From positions 1 through 46,086 of the forward strand of contig CALHIV010000012.1 of NCBI GenBank assembly GCA_938030895.1: DNA of 46,086 nt, read 5' to 3'. Both the position numbers and the translations under genes were made by a program. This document shows positions 5,193-9,878 of this stretch, piece by piece. The notes under the pieces were generated by a model. It made no database searches, was not told where the DNA came from, and was given only the letters and a program-made list of their open reading frames with translations. Origin of the DNA: an uncultured Nitrososphaerales archaeon. GTDB taxonomy: Archaea > Thermoproteota > Nitrososphaeria > Nitrososphaerales > Nitrosocaldaceae. Position 1 is the stretch's first letter. Each line of letters opens with the position of its first letter.

Positions 5193-5228
5193 ATAGGTTA
5201 GGCGGATGAATTAAAATTGGTGATGGAT

Positions 5229-5834
5229 ATGAACTCTAATCTCTGGCCTTATAGAACACCTGGCATACCCGATGAACTCTTTGCTAGGGCTGAGAGCGTT
5301 CCAATAACCAAGGAGGAGGTTAGGGTTATAGCCTTAAGTAAGGCTAGGCTGAGAGAGGGTTACAAGGTTATAGATGTAGGTTCTGGGACAGGGAGCATAA
5401 GCATAGAGGCTGCCATACAGGTAGGTAGCAGTGGAAGGGTCTATGCGATAGATAGGGATGCTGATGCTATAGCATTACTTTGGGAGAATGTAAGAAGGTT
5501 CAACATAACTAACATAGAGGTCATACAAGGGGATGCGATGGATGTGCTTGCTTCCATCCCTGAGGATGCAGATGTAGTATTCATAGGGGGTGCTGGGGGC
5601 AAGATGTATGATATAGTTAAACTGGCATATACTAGGCTTAAGAGCAAGGGTAGGATAGTTGTAGACTCGATAATGGTTGAGAGCATGAATGGTGCATTGA
5701 GCGCTATATATGAACTAGGGTTAAAGGATATAGATGTTACCCAAGTTACTATAGCGAAGGGGAAGAGGATAAAGGCTGGTACAATGTTGATAGCAAGGAA
5801 CCCAGTGCTAATAATCTCAGCAGAGAGGCCATAG
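5229..5834 (+). CDS. cbiT: Cobalt-precorrin-6B C15-methyltransferase (decarboxylating), CbiT
   Basis: CbiT methylates C15 and decarboxylates the C12 acetate side chain during anaerobic cobalamin ring synthesis. The N-terminus (LWPYRTPGIPDELF, then ITKEEVRVIALSKARL) and the SAM-binding motif VIDVGSGTGSISIEAA are diagnostic, and the later segment VFIGGAGGKMYDIV is typical. Upstream in-frame TTG, GTG and ATG codons exist at 5217-5223. A Shine-Dalgarno sequence GGTGAT at 5219-5224 lies four bases before the ATG at 5229, so that start (about 201 residues) is preferred. No cbiE is fused or adjacent. cbiL and cbiF follow on the same strand. Confidence 0.9.
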   Translation: MNSNLWPYRTPGIPDELFARAESVPITKEEVRVIALSKARLREGYKVIDVGSGTGSISIEAAIQVGSSGRVYAIDRDADAIALLWENVRRFNITNIEVIQGDAMDVLASIPEDADVVFIGGAGGKMYDIVKLAYTRLKSKGRIVVDSIMVESMNGALSAIYELGLKDIDVTQVTIAKGKRIKAGTMLIARNPVLIISAERP

Positions 5835-5903
5835 CAGAGTAAACATGGCACATTATTAAATATAGCATTACAATACAATACATAGCACGTATAGATTCTC
5901 ACG

Positions 5904-5913
5904 ATTTAAATAC
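5904..5913 (+). promoter_or_regulatory. TATA box for cbiL-cbiF
   Basis: The sequence atttaaatac matches the archaeal TATA consensus and lies 34 bases before the cbiL ATG. It predicts transcription starting about 10 bases upstream of the gene, separate from the cbiT transcript. It was found by eye only. Confidence 0.5.
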
Positions 5914-5946
5914 CACTATAACACACCTTGCTCAGGATAAAGATGT

Positions 5947-6747
5947 ATGAAGGATAAGAGTGTTGATGATGCTGGCAGGTATAAACTCTACTGTATAGGA
6001 TGTGGTCCAGGGGATCCGATGCTCTTAACCCTTAAAGCACTTGATGTGCTTAACCGTTGCAATGTGATCTTTGCACCAACATCTAGAGAAGGGAGGGAGA
6101 GCATGGCATTCAAGATAGTTAGACCACTCATAGAATCAAGGATAAAGAGTGGAGAGGTTGAGGTTAATAACCTCATATTCCCAATGGTGAAGGATAAGAG
6201 TAGGCTAGTGGATGTGTGGAGGAGTAACGCTGATGAGATAGCGAGTACATGCTTGAGAGGCAATATGGTAGCATATCTATGCGTTGGAGACCCTTCACTC
6301 TACAGCACATTTACATACATATACAGTGAGTTGAGCTCTAGATACCCAGAGATAGAGGTTGAGATTGTGCCAGGGATAACATCATTTACATCGTTTGCAT
6401 CACAAGCAAAGATGAATCTGGTCGAGGGTGAGCAGATAATGGCTGTAGTACCAGCATGCTATGACCTCGAGAGGGTGAAGAGGATAGCCAGCAGTTGTGA
6501 TACCATAGTATTTCTGAAGGATGGTAGGTACTTTGATGATGTGATAAGGATAATGAGGGAGTATATGCCAGACGATGCATACGTCGCTATAGCACAGGAT
6601 GTAGGGTCTGAAGGACAGGTTATAAAGGCGACTAGACTCAAGGATATAGATACTAGTAAGGTGAGTAAGTACTTCTCAATGATGGTAGTGAAGCGTGAGC
6701 ATCGCCAACATAACAATACTCGTTGTAGAAGTGATGTAGCAGAGTAG
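5947..6747 (+). CDS. cbiL: Cobalt-precorrin-2 C20-methyltransferase, CbiL
   Basis: This SAM-dependent tetrapyrrole methylase adds the C20 methyl group to cobalt-precorrin-2. The family blocks occur in order: GCGPGDPMLLTLKAL near the N-terminus, the CbiL-type segment FAPTSREGRESMAFKIV, CVGDPSLYSTF, and VPGITSFTSFASQAKM. It is 266 residues, slightly longer than usual owing to a polar N-terminus and a Lys/Arg-rich tail. The ATG at 5947 gives the longest sensible protein; GGCAGG upstream of YKLYCIGCGPG does not suggest a later start. cbiF follows after 13 bases, so the two are very likely one operon. Confidence 0.92.
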   Translation: MKDKSVDDAGRYKLYCIGCGPGDPMLLTLKALDVLNRCNVIFAPTSREGRESMAFKIVRPLIESRIKSGEVEVNNLIFPMVKDKSRLVDVWRSNADEIASTCLRGNMVAYLCVGDPSLYSTFTYIYSELSSRYPEIEVEIVPGITSFTSFASQAKMNLVEGEQIMAVVPACYDLERVKRIASSCDTIVFLKDGRYFDDVIRIMREYMPDDAYVAIAQDVGSEGQVIKATRLKDIDTSKVSKYFSMMVVKREHRQHNNTRCRSDVAE

Positions 6748-6760
6748 GGTAGGGTAGGGC

Positions 6761-7600
6761 ATGGGTGAAGATCTTATGGAGGAGCAGATAGGCAGTTATG
6801 CAGATAGCAATAGTAAGGGCAAGGTATACTTCGTTGGTGCTGGTCCAGGGGATAAAGAGCTCCTAACCCTTAAGGCAAAGAGGCTCATAGAGCAGGCTGA
6901 TGTTATAGTATACTCTGGCTCTCTGCTGAACCCTGAGATACTTGCATATGCCAAGAATGGCGCACTATTATACGATGCATCATCCATGAGTAGAGAGGAG
7001 ATATACTCAGTGCTAAAAGATAGTGCATTGAAGGGAAGGATCACTGTAAGGCTCCATGACGGTGACCCCTCACTCTACTCCGCTAGTAGGGAGCAGATAG
7101 ATGCCCTTGCTATGGATGGGATAGAGGTTGAGATAGTGCCAGGGATAAGCGCTCTATTCGCTGCAGCTGCCAGACTCAAGACAGAACTCACCCTTCCAGG
7201 AGTCACACAATCTGTTATAATAACTAGGGCAGAGTTCAGAACCCCAGTACCAGAGAGGGAGAGCATAAGGGAACTTGCAAAGCATAGATGTACTATGACC
7301 TTCTACCTTAGCGTTCATCTGATACAGGATATAGTTAAGGAGTTGATCGCTGCTGGTTATGGCGAGGATACTCCTATTGCTGTAGTATATAGGGCAACAT
7401 GGGGCGATGAGAAGGTTGTGGTTGGTACACTAGGGGATATAGTGGAGAAGGTTAGGGATGCTAGGATAAACAAGACTGCTGTTATAATAGTAGGAGATGT
7501 AGTAAAGCCAAGAGGGTATGAATTCTCAAGGGTATACGATGCTGGGTTCACACATACATATAGGAGTGCAAGTAGAGTAGGGAGAATAGAGGAGATCTAG
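6761..7600 (+). CDS. cbiF: Cobalt-precorrin-4 C11-methyltransferase, CbiF
   Basis: CbiF methylates C11 of the contracting corrin ring using SAM. Typical blocks are VYFVGAGPGDKELLTLKAK, the CbiF-specific VYSGSLLNPEILAYA, LHDGDPSLYSA, and VPGISALFAAAARL. It has 279 residues from the ATG at 6761. A second ATG at 6776 is preceded by GGTGA at a better spacing and would give MEEQIGSYAD; either would leave the enzyme domain intact. It ends the cbiTLF block. The genes for the intervening ring steps (cbiG, cbiH, cbiD, cbiE, cbiC) are not in the window. Confidence 0.93.
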   Translation: MGEDLMEEQIGSYADSNSKGKVYFVGAGPGDKELLTLKAKRLIEQADVIVYSGSLLNPEILAYAKNGALLYDASSMSREEIYSVLKDSALKGRITVRLHDGDPSLYSASREQIDALAMDGIEVEIVPGISALFAAAARLKTELTLPGVTQSVIITRAEFRTPVPERESIRELAKHRCTMTFYLSVHLIQDIVKELIAAGYGEDTPIAVVYRATWGDEKVVVGTLGDIVEKVRDARINKTAVIIVGDVVKPRGYEFSRVYDAGFTHTYRSASRVGRIEEI

Positions 7601-7680: not shown

Positions 7681-8316
7681 TTAGAACCTTGGCAGCTCCT
7701 CTGTAGAGGCTGTGGTGACTGATGGTAACCTGCTATCAAGATTCTTCTCTGCCACTGCTGCAGCCTCTGCAAGTATCCTCTCAACCTCCTCATTACTAAC
7801 ATCGTTAACGAAGTTGAAGTTGCCTCCCTGCATGGTATCTACCATGAGGTTGCTCAACGTACTTGTCATCTCATTTATCTCACCCTCAGCCTCTGGCATG
7901 AACCTACTTATACCCTGCTTCACACTCTTCATCACACCTATAGCAGGCGCAAGTGATACAGCAAGATCACCTATATCATGCACAGTACTTAGCCTGAGGT
8001 GCACCTGCTCCAACGCCATCTTCGCATTACCCATCGTCTTGCTTACCCTCCTCACCTCAGCCAACTCATTAGAGAGCATCCTACCAGTCTCCATGTCATG
8101 CTTGTGTACAGCCTCAACTATCCTCCTGAAGAGCATGGCATCCCTCTCGCGCATCTTCGCTAGCATAGAGTCTATCTTCTGTATCTGTAACTGTATCCTA
8201 TTCATAGCCTGTTCAACCCTTGGCCTCAGTGGTCCTTGTGGCTTGAGAGCCTCCTTAACTCTATTACCCATTCCCCTATCGTCCTTCTTTACCCACTTGC
8301 TACTAAACTCTGTCAT
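7681..8316 (-). CDS. cdvB: CdvB / ESCRT-III-like cell division protein
   Basis: This Snf7-domain protein polymerises at the membrane neck during Cdv-type archaeal cytokinesis. The sequence is mostly alpha-helical: a basic first helix (RVKEALKPQGPLRPRVEQAM), a long helical hairpin from IQLQIQKIDSMLAKMRERD to about EVRRVSKTMGNAKMALEQVH, and an acidic C-terminal half with EEVERILAEAAAVAEKN. The open frame reaches 8346, but MIIIAISILS is unlike the family. The ATG at 8316 (MTEFSSKWVKKDD), 211 residues, is preferred. cdvA and cdvC are not adjacent here, and archaea of this group carry several CdvB paralogues, so the exact paralogue is uncertain. Confidence 0.87.
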   Translation of the reverse strand: MTEFSSKWVKKDDRGMGNRVKEALKPQGPLRPRVEQAMNRIQLQIQKIDSMLAKMRERDAMLFRRIVEAVHKHDMETGRMLSNELAEVRRVSKTMGNAKMALEQVHLRLSTVHDIGDLAVSLAPAIGVMKSVKQGISRFMPEAEGEINEMTSTLSNLMVDTMQGGNFNFVNDVSNEEVERILAEAAAVAEKNLDSRLPSVTTASTEELPRF

Positions 8317-8408
8317 GCTAAGAATGCTTATAGCAATTATTATCATTGTATGTGCATAGTTCTTGACATGGTTAAGAAAGAAATGGTTATTAGTTGTATT
8401 TAGGTTAG

Positions 8409-9206
8409 ATGCTTATCATGCAACCTATAGGGGTGTTTGACTCTGGTCTAGGCTCCATATCTGTTGTAAAGGAGCTTATGAACGCATTACCAGATGAGCA
8501 TATACTATACCTTGCTGATAGGAGGAACTATCCATATGGCTTGAAGAGTAGAGAGGAGTTAAGGGAGATAATAGCAAGAGGAATAAGCAGGCTTGAAGAG
8601 TATAATCCAAAGTGCATAGTGGTTGCATCGATAACCCCATCCATGCTTGTCTTGAATGATCTTAGGTTGAGGAGCAGTACACTTCTATTTGGTGTATACC
8701 TTCACCACTCCCTTGCTAGAGCGGTAGAGGAGTCAAGTAGCAAGAGCATATCTATACTTGCAAGTAGAGCAGTTGTAAGGAGTGTTGATCTTCAGGATGT
8801 ATTCAAGGCATACATGAGTAGAGCAAGTATAACGCTTGTTGATGCTACAGAACTCATAGATCTGGTAGAGTCATGCAGGTTCCTTGAGGATGATGCTAAG
8901 CAGGTTATAGCCGATACGTGTAGAAGGTTACTGAAGGATGCAAGTATAGATACTCTAGTGCTAGGTAGCACACATATTGCACTTATAGAGGATACACTGC
9001 ACCAACTCTACCCCAATATTAGGATGATGAACCCTGTAGTCGATACAGTAGCAAGGGTCAAGGCATACCTAGAGGAGCATGGGATGCTCACTAAGAGTGC
9101 AGATGATGTGAGGTTGAGAGTATTGGATGTGGATGTGGATGTGGATAAGGACGAGCATCTTGCTTCTACACTTAAGAGGCTAGGGCTTATCTTCAGACCC
9201 ATCTAG
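8409..9206 (+). CDS. Glutamate racemase-like protein lacking both catalytic cysteines
   Basis: The fold is that of MurI-type Asp/Glu racemases. FDSGLGSISVV at residues 10-20 carries the N-terminal Asp-Ser motif, and YPYG at 41-44 matches the substrate loop. The two active-site cysteines of the family, in ACNT and GCTH motifs, are both serine here: S74 in VVASITPS and S187 in LVLGSTHIAL, read as codons tcg and agc. At 265 residues it is of normal size with no frameshift. Cysteine-based racemisation is therefore unlikely; another reaction, a binding role or a serine-based mechanism is possible. Archaea of this type have no known peptidoglycan to need D-glutamate. Its 3' end overlaps the convergent UDG gene by 27 bases. 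Confidence 0.82.
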   Translation: MLIMQPIGVFDSGLGSISVVKELMNALPDEHILYLADRRNYPYGLKSREELREIIARGISRLEEYNPKCIVVASITPSMLVLNDLRLRSSTLLFGVYLHHSLARAVEESSSKSISILASRAVVRSVDLQDVFKAYMSRASITLVDATELIDLVESCRFLEDDAKQVIADTCRRLLKDASIDTLVLGSTHIALIEDTLHQLYPNIRMMNPVVDTVARVKAYLEEHGMLTKSADDVRLRVLDVDVDVDKDEHLASTLKRLGLIFRPI

Positions 9207-9878
9207 CATATCTAGCATAAACCTAATCCTCCTGAATATATCTATCCACATACTCCAACTCAGCCTTCCTGTCTGTGTATTCTGCCTACTTGGATGGTAT
9301 GATGAGAGTAGTGTAATGGTTCTTCCTCCCCTATGCTTTACAGTATAGCATGAACCATGCCTGAACCTTGCAGATATACCATTGATACTACAGTACGCAC
9401 TGAATGCTAGCACACCTAGAGCAAGTACTATCCTTACATTCTTGAGGAGGGATATCTCATCTATTAGATATGGTATACAGTTATTCACTTCACTCTTACT
9501 TGGCCTGTTATCTGGGGGCGCACATCTAAGCACTGCTGTTATGTACACATCACTCAGCGTTAGACCATCATCCCTACTTATGCTTGTAGGTTTGTTTGCA
9601 AAGCCAGTCTCATAGAGTGCTCTAATAAGCCATGAACCCGATGAGTCACCAGTGAACATCCTCCCTGTTCTATTTGCTCCATGCGCAGCAGGTGCCAACC
9701 CTATTATCAACAGTCTAGCGTTGGTATCTCCAAACCCTGGGACTGGTTTGGCCCAGTACTCCCAGTCCCTGAACCTCCTTACCTTTATACTTGCTATATA
9801 CTCCCTGTACCTTACAAGCCTCTCACATGCTCTGCATGATACTATAGCCTCGTTGAGCAAATCTAGACTATCAAACAT
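9180..9878 (-). CDS. Type-5 uracil-DNA glycosylase (UDGb)
   Basis: This enzyme removes uracil and some other deaminated bases from DNA to start base-excision repair. The motif GLAPAAHGANRTGRMFTGD identifies family 5 rather than family 4, and the second motif is HPSRQNTQTGRL. Four cysteines suited to a 4Fe-4S cluster are present: C15 and C18 (CRACERL), LRCAPPDNRP, and VNNCIPYL. It has 232 residues. It is convergent with, and overlaps, the racemase-like gene. An endonuclease IV gene that could act downstream of it lies at 17058-17915. Confidence 0.92.
   Translation of the reverse strand: MFDSLDLLNEAIVSCRACERLVRYREYIASIKVRRFRDWEYWAKPVPGFGDTNARLLIIGLAPAAHGANRTGRMFTGDSSGSWLIRALYETGFANKPTSISRDDGLTLSDVYITAVLRCAPPDNRPSKSEVNNCIPYLIDEISLLKNVRIVLALGVLAFSAYCSINGISARFRHGSCYTVKHRGGRTITLLSSYHPSRQNTQTGRLSWSMWIDIFRRIRFMLDMLDGSEDKP

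Follow-up and report, generated by a model that had tools for sequence, protein, structure and literature searches.

Serine at both catalytic cysteine positions of a MurI-like protein in ammonia-oxidising archaea

Glutamate racemases of the MurI/RacE type (TIGR00067, EC 5.1.1.3; structures 2GZM and 1ZUW) use two cysteines that act on the alpha carbon, one as base and one as acid (PMC8142540), and in bacteria they supply D-glutamate to peptidoglycan. PMC6927343, citing Glavas and Tanner 1999, states that in the L. fermenti enzyme a Cys to Ala change abolishes the activity and a Cys to Ser change cuts it about 1000-fold. Single Cys-to-Ser mutants of the histidine racemase HisR, which has another fold, lost most of their activity (PMC11602996). 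Natural replacements of a catalytic Cys are known in the superfamily, namely in EcL-DER (Thr/Cys), MMP0739 (Cys/Thr) and RacX (Ala79), but these variants retain one Cys and racemise, partly one-way (PMC8142540; PMC12838360), while the protein described here is without any thiol at the two positions. In ammonia-oxidising archaea the gene is annotated as a glutamate racemase, and a 2025 study from the Mariana Trench (PMC12363236) describes it as ubiquitous in this group, absent from non-oxidising relatives and of bacterial origin, and proposes from the annotation that these archaea cycle D-glutamate.

The window, a stretch of 46,086 nucleotides, belongs to a Nitrosocaldus-type genome of 1.37 Mb that is 98.7% complete and contains archaeal amoA. 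The frame that opens at the first ATG is intact and gives a MurI-fold protein of 265 residues (Table 1). Conservation with the closest relative does not extend to the first three codons, and Met4 (MQPIGVFDSG) is therefore probably the start. In Pfam the protein falls within the Asp/Glu/hydantoin racemase superfamily (PF01177, 44.1 bits with a gathering score of 31). With the NCBIfam profile TIGR00067 it scores 140.3 bits, below the equivalog cut-off of 146.65, as does a Nitrosopumilus-type protein (117.7), whereas a Nitrososphaera-type protein lies above it (171.3), and a match to the profile does not require the cysteines. Among solved structures, phmmer places MurI enzymes closest (2GZM, E 6e-28). 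In the alignment with 2GZM the segment VVASITPS stands opposite VIACNTAT and LVLGSTHIAL opposite LILGCTHYPI, so that Ser74 and Ser187 (codon AGC, 8967-8969) sit on the MurI catalytic cysteines, as the first-pass annotation of this DNA had proposed. The same annotation regarded an N-terminal FDSGLGS and a YPYG loop as kept, which holds for FDSGLG and YPYG, but not for the ending 'GS', where Ser16 is itself a change from the Gly of bacterial MurI.

An AlphaFold2 model built on 56 sequences (pLDDT 93.6, pTM 0.91) resembles MurI crystal structures with TM values of 0.80-0.84, and the best PDB matches found by Foldseek are all MurI. At 24-30% identity, the window protein and bacterial MurI have in common the fold, the length and the two-domain layout as well as the Asp/Ser pair, YPYG, Thr76, Glu154 and Thr-His, and the role of D7 and S8 in MurI has been described (PMC6927343). 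They differ at both cysteine sites, and in addition Gly16 of MurI is replaced by Ser and Ala77 by Pro. The host was also expected to have no use for D-glutamate in peptidoglycan, and in agreement with this neither a Mur ligase middle domain nor an alanine racemase N-domain was found in the 98.7% complete genome.

Table 1. Features of the MurI-like gene and its upstream neighbour (window coordinates)
Feature	Position	Strand	Remarks
CdvB1/B2-like (ESCRT-III/Snf7) cell-division gene	7681..8346	-	Divergent neighbour of the MurI-like gene
62-base spacer	8347..8408	.	Separates the CdvB1/B2-like and MurI-like genes, whose starts are head to head
Ser/Ser MurI-fold protein	8418..9206	+	First ATG gives 8409-9206; Met4 is the likelier start
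Asp11-Ser12	8439..8444	+	Correspond to MurI Asp7/Ser8 (H. pylori numbering); invariant
Ser16	8454..8456	+	Gly in sampled bacterial MurI; signature of the Ser/Ser branch
Ser74 (TCG)	8628..8630	+	First catalytic cysteine position; clade codon always TCN
Pro77	8637..8639	+	Mostly Ala in bacterial MurI; Pro in 154/155 of the clade
Glu154	8868..8870	+	Equivalent to MurI Glu150/152 (PMC6927343 for the MurI residue)
Ser187-Thr188-His189 (AGC ACA CAT)	8967..8975	+	Ser187 at the second catalytic cysteine position; clade codon always AGY

The double substitution is not peculiar to the window genome but extends through the ammonia-oxidising clade as a whole and occurs in at least two bacterial homologues. 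The sample comprised 157 loci from about 155 genomes, with G128 and G219 each counted twice, and Ser is present at site 74 in 155/155 of the loci that cover it and at site 187 in 155/155, corresponding to about 153 genomes in four families; at such counts chance or sequencing error is ruled out. The difference in codon usage between the two sites (Table 1) means that the two serines arose by different base changes, and Cys was never seen at 74 or 187 in the clade loci, though it is a single base away from both AGY and TCY. Read from these sequences, both serines were fixed before the radiation of the clade and have never reverted. The remaining polar site is kept as well, with Asp11, Ser12, Ser16, Tyr43 and Gly44 invariant in all 154 readable clade loci, Thr76 and His189 present in 155/155, Glu154 in 153 with Asp in the other 2, and Thr188 also retained in the pocket. 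Between five Nitrosocaldus-type genomes dN/dS is 0.11-0.27, which corresponds to purifying selection. The alignment with relatives that the first-pass annotation had suggested as a check thus gives Ser/Ser throughout the clade and no relative with Cys at either site, and the view taken there, that the substitutions reflect selection for a changed function and not decay, is borne out by the absence of Cys in the clade, by the purifying selection and by the grouping of Ser/Ser sequences into one clade.

MurI-like matches were obtained in 173 of 300 genomes of the order, all within the listed families f1, f2, f7 and f9, and none came from the non-ammonia-oxidising families among the 300 genomes searched. 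When these genomes are scored for archaeal amoA and the MurI-like gene, 160 have both, 99 neither, 29 only amoA and 12 only the MurI-like gene, and the last 12 are members of the same ammonia-oxidiser families; the Fisher p for this association takes no account of kinship between the genomes. Copies broken by stops or fragmented are found in the ammonia oxidisers G149, G167, G118, G128 and G152 (loci L155, L156, L158, L179 and L180), and there was no match in three other ammonia oxidisers, G170, G173 and G188, the last of which we take to be Cenarchaeum symbiosum. The gene is therefore not indispensable and has been lost or broken in some lineages. Genome G219 carries two copies, of which the Ser/Ser gene on contig 4 is intact and the one on contig 3 is split (L157, L262).

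Bacterial Ser/Ser members were sought in plasmid, phage and viral collections and in one genome scan. Two were found, both in the plasmid collection, one from Phyllobacterium zundukense (WP_262291953.1) and one on a 733 kb record of Fusobacterium vincentii (NZ_CP084075). Like the window protein they have Ser at both sites, Ser16 and Pro77 and belong to the same tree clade, and the motif SSTHLPW is a further shared feature. They differ in that their hosts have peptidoglycan and in having Ala in place of Ser12 and Thr76, which may mean different ligands for different members. The F. vincentii record also encodes a separate, ordinary Cys/Cys MurI, and the two kinds of protein are therefore not interchangeable there. 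Adjoining the Phyllobacterium gene in convergent orientation is a PLP-dependent protein (L188:4817-6097) that resembles serine/threonine dehydratase but scores under all equivalog cut-offs, and it is possibly a clue to the substrate. The genome scan with the window protein returned, besides one Nitrosocaldus, bacterial homologues that are all Cys/Cys. The same pair is found in E. coli, Listeria, Sinorhizobium, Bacteroides, Nonomuraea and five viral contigs, and no viral scan produced anything other than Cys/Cys proteins. Outside the order but within the phylum, G455 yielded the only MurI detected in an archaeon that does not oxidise ammonia, and it is Cys/Cys; this copy (L176, G455:C25) has the motifs ACHT and GCTH, and its neighbour in the tree is a MurI of Omnitrophota type. 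In a maximum-likelihood tree built without the signature columns 16, 74, 77 and 187, the Ser/Ser sequences form one side of a branch with a support of 99/97, and one change on the tree suffices for the trait. The bacterial Ser/Ser pair joins Nitrosopumilaceae with weak support (90/73), and the ammonia-oxidising archaea alone as one clade are not rejected (p-AU 0.32), so that the gene may have passed between bacteria and archaea in either direction.

This distribution agrees with that described in PMC12363236, both in the ubiquity among ammonia oxidisers and in the absence from non-oxidising relatives. The paper also states that the catalytic residues are intact, which does not fit the sequences, and no mention of the Ser/Ser substitution was found in the text consulted. 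The distribution of the gene was accordingly already known, and the universal double substitution was not found in the literature searched. Cys to Ser changes cost MurI and HisR most of their activity and known natural variants retain one Cys, so efficient glutamate racemisation is improbable for a protein that lacks both thiols. What is annotated as glutamate racemase in these archaea probably does a different job.

On balance, we think that the gene represents an ancient branch of the MurI fold, marked by Ser/Ser, which probably still binds a ligand resembling an acidic amino acid and in which two-thiol racemisation has probably gone. The ligand, an acidic amino acid or a near analogue, would lie in the pocket between the two domains, flanked by Asp11 on one side and by Glu154 and His189 on the other. 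Ser74 and Ser187 would hold or protonate the substrate, and the Asp, His and Glu residues could serve as acids and bases, with a substrate of higher reactivity undergoing elimination, isomerisation or hydrolysis. Such an altered chemistry on an acidic-amino-acid-like substrate is favoured over a ligand-binding regulator and a slow racemase because conservation is strict for the hydroxyls as well as for the acid-base residues, and the apparent strict need for both hydroxyls points to an enzyme more than to a dead remnant. The human trans-3-hydroxyproline enzyme, which has a fold of the proline racemase/DapF type and in which a single Cys is changed, differs from the window protein in both respects. 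In that enzyme a Cys-to-Thr change turned a relative of a hydroxyproline epimerase into a dehydratase, which provides a precedent for loss of a thiol giving a lyase (PMC8142540). A more far-reaching proposal, which we put forward only tentatively, is that of a new enzyme class on the MurI scaffold, with a Ser/Ser site and a substrate that is not glutamate or is a modified form, of single origin, near-universal in ammonia-oxidising archaea and present in a few bacteria, and perhaps tied to cell division through CdvB.

The surroundings of the gene bear on the first alternative, a non-catalytic regulator that would use the MurI pocket to bind glutamate or some related metabolite and signal by protein contacts, perhaps to the Cdv machinery. 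The divergent pair of CdvB1/B2-like and MurI-like genes recurs in families f1, f2 and f9 with a gap of 58-114 bases, making co-regulation of the two genes possible, and the loss of both thiols takes away the known chemistry. Bacterial MurI moonlights as a protein inhibitor of gyrase, which is a precedent for a regulatory role, but GyrA gave no match in the host genome while the control genomes were positive, and with no gyrase in the host this version of the regulator is ruled out. A pure binder need not keep Asp11, Glu154 and His189 as strictly as the ligand residues, the CdvB link is broken in Nitrososphaeraceae, and cobalamin genes belong to the linked block too; the linkage to CdvB may thus be plain synteny. 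We regard a regulator as unlikely. The cobalamin genes lie three in a row at 5217-7600 and encode methyltransferases of the CbiT, CobI/CbiL and CobM/CbiF types; in f1, f2 and f9 the genes for CbiT, CobI and CobM lie close to the MurI-like gene. A functional tie to cobalamin synthesis was rejected and the arrangement read as synteny, since the gene order varies and Nitrososphaeraceae are mostly without the link. That family mostly lacks the CdvB and the cobalamin links alike, and the neighbourhood is therefore weak evidence of function and points to no pathway. HyuA adjoins the MurI-like gene in some Nitrososphaeraceae (Nitrosocosmicus-like genomes), but none was found in the host or in any Nitrosocaldaceae tested, which rules out a partnership of the two as a hydantoin/oxoproline utilisation pair.

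Less probable still is a glutamate (or aspartate) racemase that is slow or one-way and serves D-glutamate turnover, as PMC12363236 proposes; it annotates the protein as GLUR and says that the residues required for catalysis are present in the protein of N. maritimus. The fold and the remainder of the pocket are intact, racemases with a single Cys exist, and the about 0.1% activity kept by Ser mutants of MurI, as given in PMC6927343, is a level that in a Ser/Ser protein could suffice for a slow-growing autotroph. The natural variants nevertheless all keep one Cys, while both are gone in every member of the clade, and the host has no peptidoglycan pathway. Were thiols of use, reversions to Cys by a single base would be expected, and none is seen in the clade loci. 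The loss of both includes G092, presumably N. maritimus SCM1, which reads ASNTPS and SSTHLP and thus has Ser at both cysteine positions. That the gene is a decaying relic of an acquired bacterial murI, as the broken or missing copies in some genomes might suggest, is hardly credible given the low dN/dS, the invariant pocket and the frames that run full length in about 150 genomes.

Ammonia-oxidising archaea rank among the most abundant organisms of soil and sea, and the MurI-like gene marks them nearly as well as amoA does. All the sequences read from them are without both catalytic thiols, and the proposal of D-glutamate cycling therefore needs a biochemical test first. Should the Ser/Ser protein prove to have a new activity, a group of global importance would have a core gene with a so far unrecognised function.

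Downstream of the MurI-like gene, on the opposite strand, positions 9180-9878 encode a member of the uracil-DNA glycosylase superfamily (PF03167, 102 bits; 79.4 against 250 bits for the type-4 UDG equivalog), and in f1, f2 and one genus of f7 such a gene adjoins the MurI-like gene. In the window the 3' ends of the two genes share 27 bases (9180-9206). Within the MurI-like gene an in-frame GATGTG repeat at 9123-9150 adds Asp-Val units to give DVDVDVDK, where relatives have a single DVDK.
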